NCBI GenBank assembly: GCA_019115805.1
Contig: DXCW01000109.1
Coordinates: forward strand, 1-32,598
Length of the DNA stretch: 32,598 nt
Source of the DNA: Candidatus Sphingobacterium stercorigallinarum
GTDB lineage: Bacteria > Bacteroidota > Bacteroidia > Sphingobacteriales > Sphingobacteriaceae
Direction: 5' to 3'
The notes under the pieces were generated by a model that worked only from the letters and a program-made list of their open reading frames with translations, searched no databases and was not told where the DNA came from. Positions 6,854 to 19,135 of this stretch are shown here, in pieces. Numbering within the stretch: position 1 is the stretch's first letter; every line of letters starts with the position of its first letter. The position numbers and the translations under genes were made by a program.

Positions 6854-8050
6854 ATGGAAGCTACAAAAAAACTGACTTTTTTAACAGGTAACAAAAATCT
6901 TTCGGAAGAATTAAGACGTATCGCTGAAAAGGTTCTTCATGAAGAACGAATCTCTTTTCAAGAGGCAGTCTATCTTTACGAACACGCCGAATTGGGTTAT
7001 CTGGGTGTGTTGGCCAATTATATACGGGAAAGCAAGCACGGTGACTACACCTATTTCAATCGAAACTTTCACATTGAGCCGACCAATGTCTGTGTATACT
7101 CCTGTAATTTCTGTTCCTATTCGCGGTTAATCAAAAACCGGACGGAAGGTTGGGAGATGGATGTGGATGGCATGATGGATATGGTGAAGAAGTATGATGG
7201 AGAGCCCGTTACCGAAGTGCACATTACCGGCGGGGTAGTGCCGAAACAAAATCTTGAGTTTTATGCGGAGTTTTTCAAGCGCTGTAAAGCACATCGGCCC
7301 GATTTACACATTAAGGGGCTTACGCCGGTGGAATATTACTATATTTTCAAGAAGGCAAAACTGAGTCATTACGAAGGCCTGAAATATTTGAAATCCTGCG
7401 GTTTAGATTCTATGCCAGGAGGGGGAGCTGAAATTTTCCATCCAGAAGTTCGAGAGAAAATCGCACACGATAAATGCAATGCGGAACAGTGGTTAGATAT
7501 TCATGAGCAAGCGCATAAATTGGGCATGCATACCAATGCAACCATGCTTTATGGGCATATCGAAGAGTATTGGCATCGCGTAGACCACATGGACCGGCTG
7601 CGTCAACTTCAAGATAAAACGGGCGGTTTTCAAACGTTTATTCCGTTAAAATTTCGGAATAAGGATAATCAAATGGACCACGTTCCCGAGGTTTCAGTGA
7701 TAGAGGATTTAAGAAACTATGCCATTGCGCGAATTTATATGGATAATTTTCCGCATATTAAAGCGTATTGGGCAATGATTTCTCGCCAAACCGCTCAGCT
7801 ATCACTTAGTTTTGGTGTAGACGACATCGACGGAACGTTAGACGATACGACGAAAATTTACAGTATGGCCGGCGCCGAAGAACAATCACCGGCGATGAGC
7901 ACGAAAGAGTTGGTTGAATTGATTAAACAGGTCGGGAGGCATCCTATAGAACGAGACACCCTGTATCGTGTCGTAACCGATTACAAGGATGTGGAATTTG
8001 AAGATACCGCACCGAAAAAGCAATACTACAAACTCCCAGTGGTTGATTAA
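6854..8050 (+). CDS. mqnE: Aminofutalosine synthase (radical SAM)
   Basis: MqnE joins the enolpyruvyl benzoate made by MqnA to the adenosyl radical, giving aminofutalosine, the second step of the futalosine route to menaquinone. The protein has 398 residues, normal for the family. The radical-SAM iron-sulfur motif is CxxxCxxC at C80, C84 and C87 (NVCVYSCNFCSYS), followed by the HITGG glycine-rich SAM segment and GLDSMPGGGAEIF, characteristic of the MqnE/MqnC group. The start at 6854 follows a promoter element at normal distance. It is followed after 60 nt by a phosphatase gene and then by mqnA, which supports MqnE rather than MqnC. Confidence 0.92.
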   Translation: MEATKKLTFLTGNKNLSEELRRIAEKVLHEERISFQEAVYLYEHAELGYLGVLANYIRESKHGDYTYFNRNFHIEPTNVCVYSCNFCSYSRLIKNRTEGWEMDVDGMMDMVKKYDGEPVTEVHITGGVVPKQNLEFYAEFFKRCKAHRPDLHIKGLTPVEYYYIFKKAKLSHYEGLKYLKSCGLDSMPGGGAEIFHPEVREKIAHDKCNAEQWLDIHEQAHKLGMHTNATMLYGHIEEYWHRVDHMDRLRQLQDKTGGFQTFIPLKFRNKDNQMDHVPEVSVIEDLRNYAIARIYMDNFPHIKAYWAMISRQTAQLSLSFGVDDIDGTLDDTTKIYSMAGAEEQSPAMSTKELVELIKQVGRHPIERDTLYRVVTDYKDVEFEDTAPKKQYYKLPVVD

Positions 8051-8066
8051 TAGGTTAATTGGAGCA

Positions 8067-8093
8067 CGCCACATAACAGGATAAGGTGTGGCG
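8067..8093 (+). other. Intercistronic hairpin between mqnE and the phosphatase gene
   Basis: CGCCACA and TGTGGCG form a perfect 7-bp stem around a 13-nt loop. On the plus strand it is followed by a run of A, not T, so it is not an intrinsic terminator. It may protect the upstream message or affect translation of the next gene, whose TTG start is 18 nt downstream. Confidence 0.45.
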
Positions 8094-8110
8094 AAAAAAA
8101 ACAGCATTCA

Positions 8111-8734
8111 TTGAAGAAAACACTTTACTTTATTCGACACGGGCAAACCGATTTGAATCTTAAAGGAATTGTTCAAGGTCGGGGAATTAACAGTCCGCTG
8201 AATCAGACCGGGCGGCAGCAAGCCCAGGCGTTCTATCAAGCCTATAAAGACGTCCCTTTTGATAAGATATACACTTCTACATTACTTCGAACCCATCAAA
8301 CTGTCGCGCCGTTTTTGAATGATGGCATTCCTATGGAAGAGCTACCCGGTTTAGACGAGATCAGTTGGGGGATCTATGAGGGACAACCACAAAATGAACA
8401 TATTCTTTCGGGCTTTGAAGAACTTGTAACAGCCTGGCGAAATAACCAGCTTGACCACGCGATTGAGGAGGGAGAATCCCCCAATCAGTTGGTGGCTCGA
8501 CAGAAACAGGCCATGGAATATATATTAGGAAAAGCTGACGAGCAGCAAGTGTTAATATGTATGCATGGGCGAGCGCTTCGGGTGATGCTTTGCCATTTAA
8601 CCGATCTGCCGGTTTGCCAGATGGATGATTTTCCACATACCAACACGGCGTTATATGTGCTTGAGTATGAGTTTGGTAAGATAAGGTTGGTTGACCATTA
8701 CAATACGAAACATTTGGAGAATATAGATGAATAA
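8111..8734 (+). CDS. Histidine phosphatase (phosphoglycerate mutase-like)
   Basis: This 207-residue protein belongs to the histidine phosphatase superfamily. The catalytic RHG motif is at residues 9-11 (YFIRHGQTDLN), a conserved Arg lies in IYTSTLLRTHQT, and the second catalytic His is in LICMHGRALRVM. The best start is TTG at 8111, which puts the RHG motif at its usual distance; a GTG at 8087 is an in-frame alternative but sits inside a hairpin. It is sandwiched between mqnE and mqnA and overlaps mqnA by 8 nt, so it is co-translated with menaquinone genes. Substrate unknown: a sugar phosphate, nucleotide or a pathway intermediate are all possible. Confidence 0.88.
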   Translation: MKKTLYFIRHGQTDLNLKGIVQGRGINSPLNQTGRQQAQAFYQAYKDVPFDKIYTSTLLRTHQTVAPFLNDGIPMEELPGLDEISWGIYEGQPQNEHILSGFEELVTAWRNNQLDHAIEEGESPNQLVARQKQAMEYILGKADEQQVLICMHGRALRVMLCHLTDLPVCQMDDFPHTNTALYVLEYEFGKIRLVDHYNTKHLENIDE

Positions 8735-9449
8735 AATTAGTATATCAGCCGTATCCTATACCAATACTTTACCCTTTCTTCAGGGAATCAAAGCGTCCGA
8801 TGTGATGGATGATATCGAGCTGAGTGTGGATTATCCCAGCGAATGTGCTCGAAAGGTTATTGCGGGTGAGTCGGATCTGGGCATTATTCCCGTCGCGGCC
8901 CTGCTCGACTTACCGGAGCATCATATCATTGGCGATTATTGTATTGGTAGTTTAGATTATGTAGATTCCGTGTTTATCTTTTCAGACAAACCTATCGAGG
9001 AAATCAGCACACTACGTTTGGATCCCCAGTCCAGGACATCAAACGGACTGGCACGAATTCTACTCAAACGTTTCTGGAAAAGAGATGACGTGAAGATCCT
9101 TACACAGGGAAATGCCGATGCTTTTGTGTTGATCGGTGATCGCACCTTCGGACAAAAAGAACACTACAGTTACTGTTACGATTTGGGGCATTTTTGGAAA
9201 GTGTTCACTGGTCTTCCTTTCGCCTATGCGGTGTGGGCATCCAATACGGTTTTGCCGGAGGACTTTGTCGTTCGATTTAATCGGGCGTTGGCGGACGGAC
9301 TATCGCGTATCCAAGAGGTTATTCCGGGACTTCCCCCTTTTGATAACTTTGATTATCAGACTTATTTAACCGTCAATCTGGATTATGCGCTCACCAGTGA
9401 AAAACGCCAAGCGATAGACCAGTATCTGACTTGGTACCGGGAATTATAA
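8727..9449 (+). CDS. mqnA: Chorismate dehydratase
   Basis: MqnA removes water from chorismate to give 3-enolpyruvyl benzoate, the entry step of the futalosine menaquinone pathway. The 240-residue protein is a periplasmic-binding-protein-like fold without a signal peptide. Its N-terminus ISAVSYTNTLPFLQGI is typical of MqnA, and SDLGIIPVAALL and SRTSNGLARILL are conserved substrate-pocket segments. MqnD is related, but the start motif and the mqnE neighbourhood favour MqnA. The ATG at 8727 overlaps the end of the phosphatase gene. A bidirectional hairpin follows, separating it from the convergent minus-strand genes. The other pathway genes (mqnB, mqnC, mqnD) are not in this window. Confidence 0.9.
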   Translation: MNKISISAVSYTNTLPFLQGIKASDVMDDIELSVDYPSECARKVIAGESDLGIIPVAALLDLPEHHIIGDYCIGSLDYVDSVFIFSDKPIEEISTLRLDPQSRTSNGLARILLKRFWKRDDVKILTQGNADAFVLIGDRTFGQKEHYSYCYDLGHFWKVFTGLPFAYAVWASNTVLPEDFVVRFNRALADGLSRIQEVIPGLPPFDNFDYQTYLTVNLDYALTSEKRQAIDQYLTWYREL

Positions 9450-14298: not shown

Positions 14299-15813
14299 AT
14301 GGGCAAAAAAACAAAAAAAACGGAAGTCGACGTTGTTCTGATTGGTGGCGGGATTATGAGCGCAACGTTAGGAACGTTGATTAACGAGTTGAATCCCGAT
14401 ATCAACATCGAAATACTAGAGCGTTTGGATGTCGTTGCTGCGGAGAGTTCAGATGCTTGGAACAATGCCGGAACCGGGCACTCGGCATTATGCGAACTCA
14501 ATTATACGCCGCAACAAGCAGATGGTAGTGTGAAAATTGATAAGGCCATACATATTGCAGAGCAATACGAGATATCGAAGCAATTTTGGGCCTATTTGGT
14601 GGAGAAAAATATTATCCGGAACCCCAGTCATTTTATTCGTCAGGTACCGCACATGTCGGCTGTATTTGGAGAAAAAGATGTGCGTTTTCTGAAGACCAGA
14701 TACGAAACGTTAACGCAACATGTTTTGTTTCAAGGCATGGAATATACTGAGGATAAAGATAAACTTGAACAGTGGGTGCCGTTAATGATGGAGGGCAGAG
14801 ATGCTCAAGAGCCTATAGCAGCCACGAAGATGGACATCGGTACGGATGTTAATTTTGGAGCGCTTACGCGCGACTTGATTCAATACCTTGATGGTAAAGC
14901 CAATATCAGATTGTCTTTGAATCAAGAGGTCAAAGATATAGAACGAGAAGACGATGGACGCTGGGAGGTAGAAGTTAAAGACACGAAAACGGGTCGGAAA
15001 CGGGAAATCGTTGCGAAGTTCGTTTTCATAGGAGCCGGCGGGCATTCCCTGTTATTATTGGAGAAATCAGGTATTCCAGAGGCTAAGGGCTATGGTGGAT
15101 TCCCAGTCGGTGGGCAATGGCTACGTTGCACCAACGAGGAAATCATTCGTCAGCATCATGCCAAAGTATATGGAAAAGCATCAGTCGGTGCGCCGCCGAT
15201 GTCGGTGCCGCATCTCGACACCCGTTATATTGATGGCAAGCAAGCACTTCTTTTTGGCCCTTACGCGGGATTTTCAACAAAGTTTTTGAAGAAAGGTTCG
15301 TACTTTGACCTGCCGGCATCGATTAAGCTTTCGAACATTCGCCCGATGCTGTCTGCAGGTTTAGACAATTTGCCATTGACAAAATACTTAATCACAGAGG
15401 TGATGAAAAAGCCACAGGATAAACTGGACTCATTAAAACAGTTTATGCCTACGGCTAAATTAGACGATTGGGAGATTGAGAAGGCGGGGCAACGTGTGCA
15501 GGTCATTAAAAAAGATCCAAAACACGGGGGGATTTTGGAATTCGGTACAGAGGTGGTGTCCAGTTCGGACGGATCGATTGCCGCTTTATTGGGGGCCTCA
15601 CCAGGTGCTTCTACCTCGGTCGCGATTATGATCAATTTGCTAAAACGCTGCTTCCCTGAACGAGCTAAATCAGAGGAGTACCGCAAGAAATTACGGGAAA
15701 TGATTCCATCGTGGGGTAAAAAGCTCGACGAGGATCCAGAACTTTGTCGTACGACAAGGGACCATACGCATCGGGTTTTGCGCTTGGATGTGGATGGAAC
15801 AACAAATACATAA
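14299..15813 (+). CDS. mqo: Malate:quinone oxidoreductase
   Basis: Mqo is a membrane-associated FAD enzyme that oxidises malate to oxaloacetate and passes electrons to the quinone pool. The protein has 504 residues, normal for the family. The FAD-binding motif is at the N-terminus (VLIGGGIMSATLG, residues ~14-26), followed by ERLDVVAAESSDAWNNAGTGHSALCELNYTP-type residues (about 41-71) that are highly conserved in Mqo. A late GASPGAST segment contributes to FAD binding. It is transcribed from its own promoter. No terminator is visible before the TPP riboswitch that starts 12 nt after the stop codon, so read-through into the riboswitch is possible. Confidence 0.95.
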   Translation: MGKKTKKTEVDVVLIGGGIMSATLGTLINELNPDINIEILERLDVVAAESSDAWNNAGTGHSALCELNYTPQQADGSVKIDKAIHIAEQYEISKQFWAYLVEKNIIRNPSHFIRQVPHMSAVFGEKDVRFLKTRYETLTQHVLFQGMEYTEDKDKLEQWVPLMMEGRDAQEPIAATKMDIGTDVNFGALTRDLIQYLDGKANIRLSLNQEVKDIEREDDGRWEVEVKDTKTGRKREIVAKFVFIGAGGHSLLLLEKSGIPEAKGYGGFPVGGQWLRCTNEEIIRQHHAKVYGKASVGAPPMSVPHLDTRYIDGKQALLFGPYAGFSTKFLKKGSYFDLPASIKLSNIRPMLSAGLDNLPLTKYLITEVMKKPQDKLDSLKQFMPTAKLDDWEIEKAGQRVQVIKKDPKHGGILEFGTEVVSSSDGSIAALLGASPGASTSVAIMINLLKRCFPERAKSEEYRKKLREMIPSWGKKLDEDPELCRTTRDHTHRVLRLDVDGTTNT

Positions 15814-15823
15814 TTTATGATCA

Positions 15824-15948
15824 TTGGGGTGCTTACGCAGTTTGGCAAAAAAGTCAAACGCTCCGGTAGGCTGAGATTATACCCACTTTCCTTAGGTTTA
15901 TCAAAAGGAAGCGAACCTGATCCAGATAATGCTGGCGTAGGGAAATAG
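15824..15948 (+). promoter_or_regulatory. TPP (THI-box) riboswitch
   Basis: The conserved thiamine-pyrophosphate aptamer elements occur in order: GGGGTGC (15826-15832), CTGAGA (15871-15876), ACCC (15881-15884), and ACCTGATC with CAGATAATGCTGGCGTAGGGAA to 15944 (given here in two overlapping parts). The segment before CTGAGA folds as GTTTG/CAAAC. Between ACCC and the ACCTGATC strand there is an extra 29-nt insert that can form its own stem (CTTTCCTT with AAGGAAG, one bulged T). The outer P1 stem is weak by hand folding. No terminator with a T-run follows, so control may be at translation initiation of pnuT, whose ATG lies in a short self-complementary segment (15993-16005). Confidence 0.95.
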
Positions 15949-16003
15949 AACACTGGGTTTTCAGTATATCATTCTTAAGCATCGCCGATAAAATGGATGA
16001 TCC

Positions 16004-16612
16004 ATGGGCGATATTTTTCAGTTATTTATTCAAGGCGTTCAACAGACCTCATGGTTGGAATGGGTGTCGGTGTTAGCGGGTGTAATTCAGGTTTTTCTAT
16101 CAAAAGAAAACAAGGTACTCACTTATCCGTTTGGCATCATCAGCATACTCACTGCGGTGGCCGTATTGTATCCCGCGAAACTTTATGCCGAAATGATACT
16201 TCAAGGGTATTACCTGGTGATGAGTGTTTATGGATGGTGGTTTTGGACCAACAAACAGAACGAGCCTAGACCGATCACCTACGCGAACCGGCGGGATTGG
16301 AAAATTGTCCTTCTCATCATTTTGCTGGGCTTCTTTTTGCTTCATACCGTCCTTCAACGTTGGACGGATTCCGATGTGCCAATTTGGGACGCTTGGGTGA
16401 GCTGTACGGCCTGGGCAGGTATGTGGCTGTTGGCGAAGCGGAAGATCGAAAATTGGATTCTTTTAAATATCAGTAACCTTTTTGCGGTTCCGCTCTTTAT
16501 CTATAAGGAGCTGTATTTGTTCGCTTTGTTAACGGCAGTTTTGTTTACTGTTGCTGTTTTTGGGTATTTAAAATGGACGCGAATTGTAAAGATTCAACGG
16601 AAGGAATTGTGA
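16004..16612 (+). CDS. pnuT: PnuC-family transporter, probable thiamine transporter PnuT
   Basis: The 202-residue integral membrane protein has about seven hydrophobic segments and PnuC-family features: an N-terminal WLEWVSVLAGVIQVFLS, the YPFGIIS loop, the VYGWWFW tryptophan motif and the C-terminal NWILLNISNLFAVPLFIYK. PnuC transporters carry nicotinamide riboside, but members controlled by a TPP riboswitch are assigned to thiamine (PnuT). The riboswitch ends 56 nt upstream, which decides the call here. The ATG at 16004 is chosen; an overlapping frame starting at 15997 is a shadow. The next gene starts 1 nt after the stop codon, indicating translational coupling. Confidence 0.88.
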   Translation: MGDIFQLFIQGVQQTSWLEWVSVLAGVIQVFLSKENKVLTYPFGIISILTAVAVLYPAKLYAEMILQGYYLVMSVYGWWFWTNKQNEPRPITYANRRDWKIVLLIILLGFFLLHTVLQRWTDSDVPIWDAWVSCTAWAGMWLLAKRKIENWILLNISNLFAVPLFIYKELYLFALLTAVLFTVAVFGYLKWTRIVKIQRKEL

Positions 16613-16613
16613 G

Positions 16614-17681
16614 ATGAAACTAGAGAAATCATTAATTGATCGTATTGTAAGCCTTCGATCGGAAGGTATTGCCGGAAAACAGCTCAGCCCGAGTCAGCTG
16701 GCATTAGTTTACCAAGAGAACTGGTTCAACTTGTGGGTGCCTAAAGATTTGGGAGGGTTGGCCGCGCCCTTTTCTACCGGTTTGAAGTTTCTTAGGGAGC
16801 TGGCCTATTGGGACGGGGGATTGGGGTGGACGGTGACGCTATGTGCAGGTGCCAATATGTTTGCTGGCTTTTTATCCCCTGCTACCGCAAGAGACATATG
16901 GAAAGAGCCTAAGGTTTGCTTGGGCGGTAGCGGGCAGGTCAACGGGCGGGCGCGCGTGGTGGAAAATGGATTTGAAATTTCCGGTACCTGGAAATACGCG
17001 ACTGGAGCGCCTCACTTGACCCATTTTACACTTAACGCATGGGTGGATGATGGGAGCGATTCGCTTGGGAACGAGCGTTATTTTTCGTTTTTAGTGCCAC
17101 GAGAACAGGTGAGGATTCACTCGGACTGGGATACGTTTGGTTTAGAATGTACAGCAAGTCATTCTTTTTCTCTGGATCAAGTCTTCGTACCCGTTGCGTA
17201 TCGCTTCGAGTTGACGCGAGAAGGGGTTAAGGCCGATGATAGTCTATATGCTATTTCGTTTATTAATTTCGCTGAATTGACGTTGTTTGTCAATTATTTG
17301 GGAATGTATCAACGATTTTTGGATATCATTATGACACAACTTTCTGAAAAAGTCGGGCGATCCGAATCTGATGATCTGCGTGTTCAGGAGCAAATCGATC
17401 GGTTGACTGGTTATTCAGCGGAGAATCAAGTCGAATTGGATTGGGGGATAGCAGTGGCAGATCGTTTAGAGCAGTTTGGTCAAGATCTGGAAGGTCAGTA
17501 TAGAGAAGAATTGGAGGCGGAAGTTGCACAACGGACCCGGGTATGTATTGCATTGATGAGAAGCCGAGTGGCCGAAATCATGCCTTGGGGTGGGATTAAG
17601 GCTGCGCAATATGAAGAAGAGCTCAATCAGGTCTTTCGCAATATTTTCACGGCAACACAACACGCCTTACTCAACCGATAA
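16614..17681 (+). CDS. Acyl-CoA-dehydrogenase-like flavoprotein in TPP-riboswitch operon
   Basis: The 355-residue protein has the acyl-CoA dehydrogenase fold: a helical N-terminal domain with VPKDLGGLAAPFSTGLKFL, a middle beta domain with GSGQVNGRARVVENGFEISG and WKYATGAPHLTHF, and a C-terminal helical bundle ending in TATQHALLNR. The middle segment resembles group D flavin monooxygenases and related dehydrogenases more than fatty acyl-CoA enzymes, so the flavin and substrate class are uncertain. It starts 1 nt after the pnuT stop codon and is therefore under the same riboswitch. This suggests a link to thiamine or pyrimidine/thiazole salvage, which is inference only. No terminator with a clear hairpin follows. 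Confidence 0.8.
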   Translation: MKLEKSLIDRIVSLRSEGIAGKQLSPSQLALVYQENWFNLWVPKDLGGLAAPFSTGLKFLRELAYWDGGLGWTVTLCAGANMFAGFLSPATARDIWKEPKVCLGGSGQVNGRARVVENGFEISGTWKYATGAPHLTHFTLNAWVDDGSDSLGNERYFSFLVPREQVRIHSDWDTFGLECTASHSFSLDQVFVPVAYRFELTREGVKADDSLYAISFINFAELTLFVNYLGMYQRFLDIIMTQLSEKVGRSESDDLRVQEQIDRLTGYSAENQVELDWGIAVADRLEQFGQDLEGQYREELEAEVAQRTRVCIALMRSRVAEIMPWGGIKAAQYEEELNQVFRNIFTATQHALLNR

Positions 17682-18100: not shown

Positions 18101-19135
18101 TTATTCTCTTTCTGTTTCCGAATGGCTGATCGCCTGTTTGTTGATTTCTTGAAATACTTCGTTTACGATTTGGAAACAGCGCAACCTCGCTTCGTCGTCA
18201 TAAATATAGTTGGTCATCATGATTTCATCTGCTTGATAAAGTTCAGCAAAATCACGAAGCTGAGCTGCAAGTGTCTCTTTGGTTCCCGTAAACGTCGTCG
18301 AAGTCATGGAATCTACCGCTCGTTCTATTTCTGGGATACCCGCATATATAGGTTCGGCAGTCGGTGGTGACAATGGGAAACGACTATTGGTCACAATGCC
18401 CGCGAATAAATTATATAAGCTCGTCGCTAAAAACTCGGCGGCCTGCTCGGTTTCCGCAGCAAAGATATTCACACAAGGCATAAAGTAAGGTGACTGCAAG
18501 TGTGTGGAGGGTTTAAAATTTTCTCTGTAAATCTTTGCGGCCGCTCCAAGCATTGCGGGAGCGAAATGAGCCGCAAACGCGTAGGGCAGTCCCAATTCTG
18601 CAGCTAGATGTGCGCTATCGGTACTTGAACCCAAAATCCAGATCGGAATTTCGAGCCCTTCTCCCGGGAAAGCGCGTACTTTCGCAGAATGGTTTTCTTC
18701 ACTAAAGAACGTTTGTAAAGCCAGTATGTCATCACGAAAATAGAAGGAGGTGTTGATGTTATTGCGACGCAATGCCATTGCTGTTAATTGGTCGGTACCG
18801 GGAGCTCGACCCAAGCCTAAATCAATGCGCCCGGGGTATAGCGATTCCAGGGTGCCGAATTGTTCGGCAATCACCAAAGGCGCGTGATTGGGGAGCATGA
18901 TGCCACCGGAGCCAACCCGGATTTTTTCGGTATGCTGGGCAAGATGGCCTATCAAAACCGAGGTAGCGGAGCTCGCAATATGCTCCATATTATGATGTTC
19001 GGCAAGCCATATGCGTGTATATCCCAGTTCATCCGCAATTTTTGCACCATCAACTGCTCGTTTGATCGCATGTGCAACGTCATTGTTTTTACAGACCGTG
19101 GCGAGTTCCAGAACGGAATGCTTTATTGTTTTCAT
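18101..19135 (-). CDS. LLM-class flavin-dependent oxidoreductase (luciferase-like)
   Basis: The 344-residue protein belongs to the bacterial luciferase-like family, of the single-component type often named MsnO8 or YhbW. Characteristic segments are YTRIWLAEHHNMEHIASSATSV (residues ~39-60, given here as a family landmark), IRVGSGGIMLPNH, VIAEQFGTLESLYPGRIDLGLGRAPG and IWILGSSTDSAHLAAELG. These enzymes use reduced flavin and oxygen; the substrate here is unknown. The true physiological reaction is undefined for most members. A near-consensus -7 element (TACCTTTA, 19141-19148) ends only 5 nt before the ATG. Although a LuxE-like gene is about 5 kb away, no luxAB pair exists and bioluminescence is not suggested. 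Confidence 0.9.
   Translation of the reverse strand: MKTIKHSVLELATVCKNNDVAHAIKRAVDGAKIADELGYTRIWLAEHHNMEHIASSATSVLIGHLAQHTEKIRVGSGGIMLPNHAPLVIAEQFGTLESLYPGRIDLGLGRAPGTDQLTAMALRRNNINTSFYFRDDILALQTFFSEENHSAKVRAFPGEGLEIPIWILGSSTDSAHLAAELGLPYAFAAHFAPAMLGAAAKIYRENFKPSTHLQSPYFMPCVNIFAAETEQAAEFLATSLYNLFAGIVTNSRFPLSPPTAEPIYAGIPEIERAVDSMTSTTFTGTKETLAAQLRDFAELYQADEIMMTNYIYDDEARLRCFQIVNEVFQEINKQAISHSETERE

Follow-up and report, generated by a model that had tools for sequence, protein, structure and literature searches.

A flavin monooxygenase-like gene as a conserved partner of pnuT in a TPP-riboswitch-associated uptake module of Sphingobacteriaceae

What does a flavoenzyme do immediately behind a thiamine-type transporter, under a TPP riboswitch? 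The question is raised by a locus of Candidatus Sphingobacterium stercorigallinarum, located in a 32,598-nucleotide stretch of DNA (hereafter the window) that makes up contig 236 in an assembly totalling 3.1 Mb. The initial annotation had described a TPP aptamer followed by pnuT and, 1 nt further on the same strand, by a flavoprotein gene, and this order is borne out by the RF00059 and R1 covariance models, the PF04973 match and the ORF coordinates (Table 1). The interval that it delimited contains both genes but begins 8 nt inside the aptamer.

The partner of pnuT in gut Bacteroidetes is tnr3, a kinase that produces TPP from thiamine (PMC5613172). In these OMthi-pnuT-tnr3 systems, too, a TPP riboswitch goes with a TonB receptor and PnuT, encoded in a single operon or split over two; there, however, a kinase comes after pnuT, whereas here its place is taken by a monooxygenase-like protein and the thiamine pyrophosphokinase (TPK) is degenerate. 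The locus is thus distinct from a PnuT-TPK (tnr3) pair, since the flavoprotein follows pnuT. Our literature search found no report of a flavin monooxygenase-type partner of pnuT, nor any on thiamine salvage in Sphingobacteriaceae, so the earlier remark that such a partner was not a recognised one holds, tnr3 being the known partner in gut Bacteroidetes (PMC5613172).

Table 1. Features of the riboswitch-pnuT-flavoprotein locus (window coordinates)
Feature	Position	Strand	Evidence
TPP riboswitch aptamer, central junction bearing an additional helix	15816-15953	+	RF00059 35.9 bits; R1 94.9 bits
Inserted hairpin between P2 and P4 (J2/4)	15885-15913	+	stem 15887-15893 with 15905-15911, by folding
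Possible expression platform, hairpin ATCGCC...GGCGAT including the pnuT start codon	15981-16012	+	inferred only
pnuT, PnuC-family transporter, predicted thiamine-type, 202 aa	16004-16612	+	PF04973 E 1.5e-51
Flavin monooxygenase-like protein, HsaA/Rv3094c group, 355 aa, TPP-regulon member	16614-17681	+	

The aptamer and its additional hairpin

In a permissive scan of 281 bases, RF00059 aligned over its full length (1-105 of 105) to positions 15816-15960 of the forward strand (E 1.1e-5), with a score lower than the curated 54.3 bits of this family, and a TPP riboswitch was not listed by a default Rfam scan of the window. The aptamer core is complete, comprising GGGGTGC, GCTGAGA, TACCC, AACCTGATCC and GCTGGCGTAGGG, and the conserved elements that define RF00059 (P2, CUGAGA, P4/P5 and UAAUGC-GGCGUAGGG) are all present. 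The sub-threshold score is mainly caused by a 29-nt insertion in J2/4, which separates P2 (ACCC) from P4 (AACCTGATC). The R1 model, built from 24 related aptamers with the window's own among them, recognized positions 15814-15953. Aptamers carrying this hairpin fall under the Rfam cut-off and would be overlooked by default scans.

Comparison of 33 distinct sequences revealed that the inserted segment folds as a hairpin. At four stem positions, 96% of the pairs are complementary, versus 58% after re-dealing of the 3' arms, and none of 2000 shuffles reached the observed level, though these shuffles overstate the strength of the hairpin because the sequences are related. Sliding of one arm gave 43-60% pairing. 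The stem pairs vary among TA, CG, AT and GC, with several types per position, and the insert ranges from 16 to 45 nt in length across relatives; this range of pair types and lengths supports the J2/4 hairpin as a real structure. The helix lies at a site other than P3a, the optional helix of TPP riboswitches described by Barrick and Breaker (PMC2258182), in an aptamer that otherwise has the same core motifs as RF00059. Our literature search on J2/4 insertions in TPP aptamers found nothing on point.

In the window's genome, the hairpin is found in the two transport aptamers only and is missing from the three biosynthetic ones. It is also absent from the biosynthetic aptamers of genomes G008 and G256, and all these hairpin-less aptamers reach 68-82 bits with Rfam's own model. 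Among transport operons (pnuT, TonB receptor), the hairpin is carried by the aptamers of the window, L003-L030, L035, L067, L068, L071-L073, L077, L098, L105, L123, L127, L129 and L131, and the pnuT aptamer of L119 is devoid of it. No TPP site was found within the 1.5 kb flanks of canonical TPK genes of other Bacteroidota.

The position of the pnuT start codon within the downstream hairpin (15981-16012) would fit translational control, as deduced from the sequence. The calculated fold of this region is at chance level in a 77-nt segment (z 0.33) and weak in a 51-nt segment (z -1.48). In L003, L005, L012 and L030, CCATAAGT-type segments located 3' of the aptamer are complementary to its 5' end ACTTATGG, which suggests a possible switch that hides the start codon; this complementarity is weak in the window itself (15820-15832 with 15981-16012).

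The window also carries, upstream of the riboswitch, the malate:quinone oxidoreductase gene mqo (14299-15813), in an order common across the genus, and, at 6854-9449, neighbouring genes of the futalosine-type menaquinone pathway encoding an MqnE-like radical SAM protein and a protein of the VitK2_biosynth family.

Conservation of the pnuT-flavoprotein pair

Among the 400 genomes surveyed in the order, 277 encode the flavoprotein. In 41 of the 44 Sphingobacteriaceae loci sampled, which come from many genera, its gene stands next to pnuT in the same orientation, with a spacing of -71 to +138 nt when start codons are chosen mechanically. These counts rest on samples of relatives and on mechanically defined ORFs, and related genomes do not represent independent events. 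A single-protein scan of contigs recovered just three loci; whole-genome searches recovered more. Since the succession of aptamer, pnuT and flavoprotein gene is kept in relatives, its occurrence by chance is excluded.

A custom covariance model detected a TPP aptamer at 28 of the 41 pairs, 17 times directly before pnuT and 11 times before a TonB receptor-pnuT-flavoprotein operon; the other 13 pairs have no aptamer detectable with this model. Within the genus sample, the aptamer is present at 27 of 29 loci. In five pairs from one genus, g12 (L034, L036, L037, L054 and L055), pnuT follows mqo almost directly, no riboswitch was detected, and the pair seems, from the sequences, to have got free of TPP control.

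PnuT belongs to the PnuC fold family, lies under a TPP aptamer and forms an orthologue group separate from the NadR-linked PnuC; indeed, the second PnuC of the genome is followed by a NadR-like gene. The PnuC-NadR system for nicotinamide riboside salvage also joins a PnuC-family facilitator to a cargo-modifying enzyme, and it is represented by this separate paralogue in the same genomes. An orthologous pnuT is present in 19 of 21 carriers of the flavoprotein versus none of 13 non-carriers (Fisher p 1e-7, with relatedness not corrected for), and the sole PnuC of the non-carriers is the second, NadR-linked one.

Could the flavoprotein gene be unrelated to thiamine and stand beside pnuT merely through inherited gene order? 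The order mqo-pnuT-flavoprotein is common throughout the genus, as this explanation predicts. Outside the genus, however, the flanking genes vary (mqo, TonB receptor, gyrase-like and others) while the pair remains constant, and pnuT and the flavoprotein gene are gained and lost together. Such passive linkage is thus largely refuted and appears highly improbable.

In a tree of 64 proteins, the pnuT-linked flavoproteins form one clade (support 100/96), together with a few unlinked members. The pair also occurs outside the family, with an aptamer in L119, L123, L127 and L129 and without one in L124, and in L131 the gene of a divergent homologue immediately precedes an aptamer and a TonB receptor of thiamine type. 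pnuT does not adjoin the flavoprotein gene in L038, L042, L056, L118 and L120-L122. Homologues are mostly tied to pnuT and to TPP aptamers, an outcome of the homologue-linkage check proposed by the initial annotation that strongly supports the link to thiamine. Collectively, these genome comparisons show the flavoprotein gene to be a conserved member of a predicted TPP-regulated uptake module in Sphingobacteriaceae and some other Bacteroidota families.

Two apparent clues were discarded. A presumed PnuT-flavoprotein fusion in L124 is a long ORF that merely crosses pnuT in another frame, and the distant homologues with guanine deaminase/PhnCE neighbours (L132 and L133) are not members of the pnuT clade and lack a TPP aptamer.

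A predicted two-component-type flavin monooxygenase

The initial annotation had placed the 355-residue protein among acyl-CoA-dehydrogenase-like or monooxygenase-like flavoproteins. Profiles, fold and residues favour the second assignment, narrowed to the HsaA/Rv3094c group, over the first. Acyl-CoA dehydrogenase matches in Pfam are weak (E 0.0025, below the cut-off). In NCBIfam and PDB profile searches, the nearest profiles are HsaA and Rv3094c, the latter being the best (E 6e-38); the HsaA match (E 1.3e-21) has 76.9 bits, far from the 450-bit cut-off of the NF045629 equivalog, so that the protein is no HsaA equivalog. The AlphaFold2 model (pLDDT 93) superimposes with Z of 37-40 on Rv3094c, HsaA, XiaF and the HPA hydroxylase C2, and with Z of 31-33 on acyl-CoA dehydrogenases.

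FMN contacts of Rv3094c have been reported, and H351 is proposed there to donate a proton for the hydroperoxyflavin (PMC9904262). Most of these contacts are kept, as identical or conservative residues (W72, G105, Y128, T130, W172, L177, S182, T346 and H350), and H350 aligns with H351 of Rv3094c. W72, G105, W172, T346 and H350 show no variation across 44 sequences. Both the fold and the FMN contacts with the catalytic histidine are thus those of group D two-component flavin monooxygenases. The model and the residues support assignment as a two-component-type flavin monooxygenase, for which reduced flavin and O2 would be the cosubstrates; the protein is unlikely to be a classical acyl-CoA dehydrogenase. 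A true enzyme of the acyl-CoA dehydrogenase type, acting without O2, for example in aromatisation of a dihydrothiazole or in side-chain oxidation, would draw on the common fold and on the weak Pfam matches, but sequence and structure are clearly nearer to monooxygenases, including the histidine that supports the hydroperoxyflavin, and we regard this alternative as quite improbable.

Rv3094c (PDB 7f70/7f72/7f74; PMC9904262) shares the fold (Z 40), the FMN contacts and the catalytic histidine with our protein, but the two have only 19% identity and a different genomic context, and the C-terminal tail of our protein is about 20 residues shorter. The gate residue F221 of Rv3094c is replaced by the invariant A220, beside the near-invariant E221, and W115 by the invariant G107; one may speculate that a cationic thiazolium could be accommodated by an acidic residue close to the gate. 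HsaA, the 3-HSA hydroxylase, and the HPA hydroxylase C2 have in common with our protein the two-component fold and conserved Arg and His residues in the last helix, but, unlike in these systems, no genes for steroid or aromatic catabolism lie nearby. Inspection of the neighbourhood revealed no dedicated or conserved flavin reductase beside the flavoprotein gene. The luciferase-like gene at 18101-19135 was considered as a flavin supplier and set aside, its neighbourhood being limited to genus level.

Thiamine gene content and the proposed role in salvage

The window's genome has thiL and five TPP aptamers, located before thiM-thiE-thiD-tenA, the tenI-thiE-thiG-thiH-thiF cluster, thiC, a TonB receptor and pnuT-flavoprotein. 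Its de novo pathway is intact, and the module would therefore serve salvage, which is optional in this species. Many carriers lack genes of this pathway: thiC is missing in 45 of 79, and thiG too in 44 of these 45; G256 lacks thiC only. thiL is present in all 33 genomes tested and TenA in only 8 of 33. G008, which belongs to the same genus as the window, is devoid of thiC, thiG and TPK but retains a TPP-regulated operon made up of thiM, thiE, thiD and tenA.

Canonical TPK (PF04263) was found in none of 34 Sphingobacteriaceae genomes versus 194 of 395 across the phylum, an absence that rests on one Pfam model and a relic alignment. Instead, a 188-aa TPK-like protein matches in profile the canonical Flavobacterium-type TPK and has in common with it the N-terminus MSSHHIVR-QEPAL and the segment GQLLEWSP; the Sphingobacteriaceae protein is devoid of the GDFD, TDLEKA and TGKRADH motifs. 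By its sequence, it is a TPK relic that has lost its catalytic motifs. The copy of the window's genome lies at G000:C158:15292-15852 (L167). This family of about 190 aa (L041, L043, L053, L064-L066 and L167-L181) keeps MSSHHIVREKQEPALLI and GQLLEWSP, and its gene often adjoins those of a TonB receptor, PafA and a ThiE-like protein.

As the TPK is degenerate, thiC and thiG are often lost and thiL is kept, the leading reading is that the flavoprotein processes a thiamine precursor or breakdown product, as had been supposed from linkage. Low TPP would permit synthesis of PnuT and the monooxygenase; PnuT would admit thiamine or a thiamine-derived compound; the monooxygenase would oxidise this cargo, thereby trapping it and converting it to, or releasing, a pyrimidine or thiazole building block; and this block would be rebuilt to TPP by ThiD/ThiM, ThiE and ThiL. 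Entry at this point is postulated because, without a working TPK, thiamine could not be turned directly into TPP by that route. PnuC-type transporters are facilitators, and the neighbouring enzyme would therefore also trap the cargo, like the kinases elsewhere. Rebuilding of TPP from its moieties via ThiE and ThiL is the simplest reading of the gene content, and the monooxygenase that adjoins the transporter in the TPP regulon would be the best candidate for the moiety supplier, given that TenA is confined to a minority of the genomes. Sphingobacterium and its relatives thus probably use an oxidative step for vitamin B1 salvage. We hold the whole model, from import of a thiamine-related compound through its oxidation to rebuilding via ThiE/ThiL, tentatively, as a proposal that falls a little short of even chances.

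A more specific version, in which the monooxygenase replaces TPK by opening or cleaving thiamine, or one of its natural breakdown products, after import, with TPP rebuilt via ThiE and ThiL and the former kinase persisting as a conserved, catalytically dead protein, is possible but doubtful. The divergent pnuT-linked carrier G604, from outside the family, has a canonical TPK; this counts against the salvage model and limits the idea of TPK replacement at most to the main lineage. The transport operons of B. thetaiotaomicron, whose PnuT transports thiamine as cited in PMC5613172, do not respond to thiamine at the RNA level (PMC5613172), which also counts against it.

Two other functions would account for the same linkage with pnuT and the aptamer or for the chemistry. 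In the first, PnuT would import thiamine, a hidden kinase would make TPP, and the flavoprotein would repair or recycle co-imported oxidised or degraded thiamine. A precedent is yeast Tnr3, which deals with oxidised thiamine diphosphates. Thiazole-like sulfur chemistry would be within reach of the enzyme, as Rv3094c oxygenates a thioamide sulfur (PMC9904262). However, a monooxygenase adds oxygen and would hardly be suited to reversing an oxidation; the analysis turned up no kinase, and the TPK homologue is degenerate, which makes repair rather unlikely. In the second, the flavoprotein would inactivate antivitamins such as bacimethrin and methoxythiamine that enter by PnuT. Thiamine antivitamins are natural compounds (PMC12345177), a facilitator produced when TPP is scarce would admit analogues too, and oxidative demethylation suits a monooxygenase. 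The near one-to-one pairing with pnuT and the retention in auxotrophs nevertheless fit an essential salvage function better than an occasional defence, and we consider detoxification improbable.

If the salvage model is right, the flavoprotein is a candidate for the missing enzyme of B1 salvage in a large bacterial group from soil, plants and water, of which many members are unable to synthesise B1. If thiamine must indeed be dismantled and rebuilt, predictions of vitamin exchange that assume TPK would be wrong for this group.

In other genera, the module is sometimes followed by PafA, ThiE-like and TPK-like genes. The alkaline phosphatase gene pafA lies downstream of the flavoprotein gene in L041, L043, L052, L053, L062, L064 and L066, and its product could dephosphorylate external TPP ahead of uptake.
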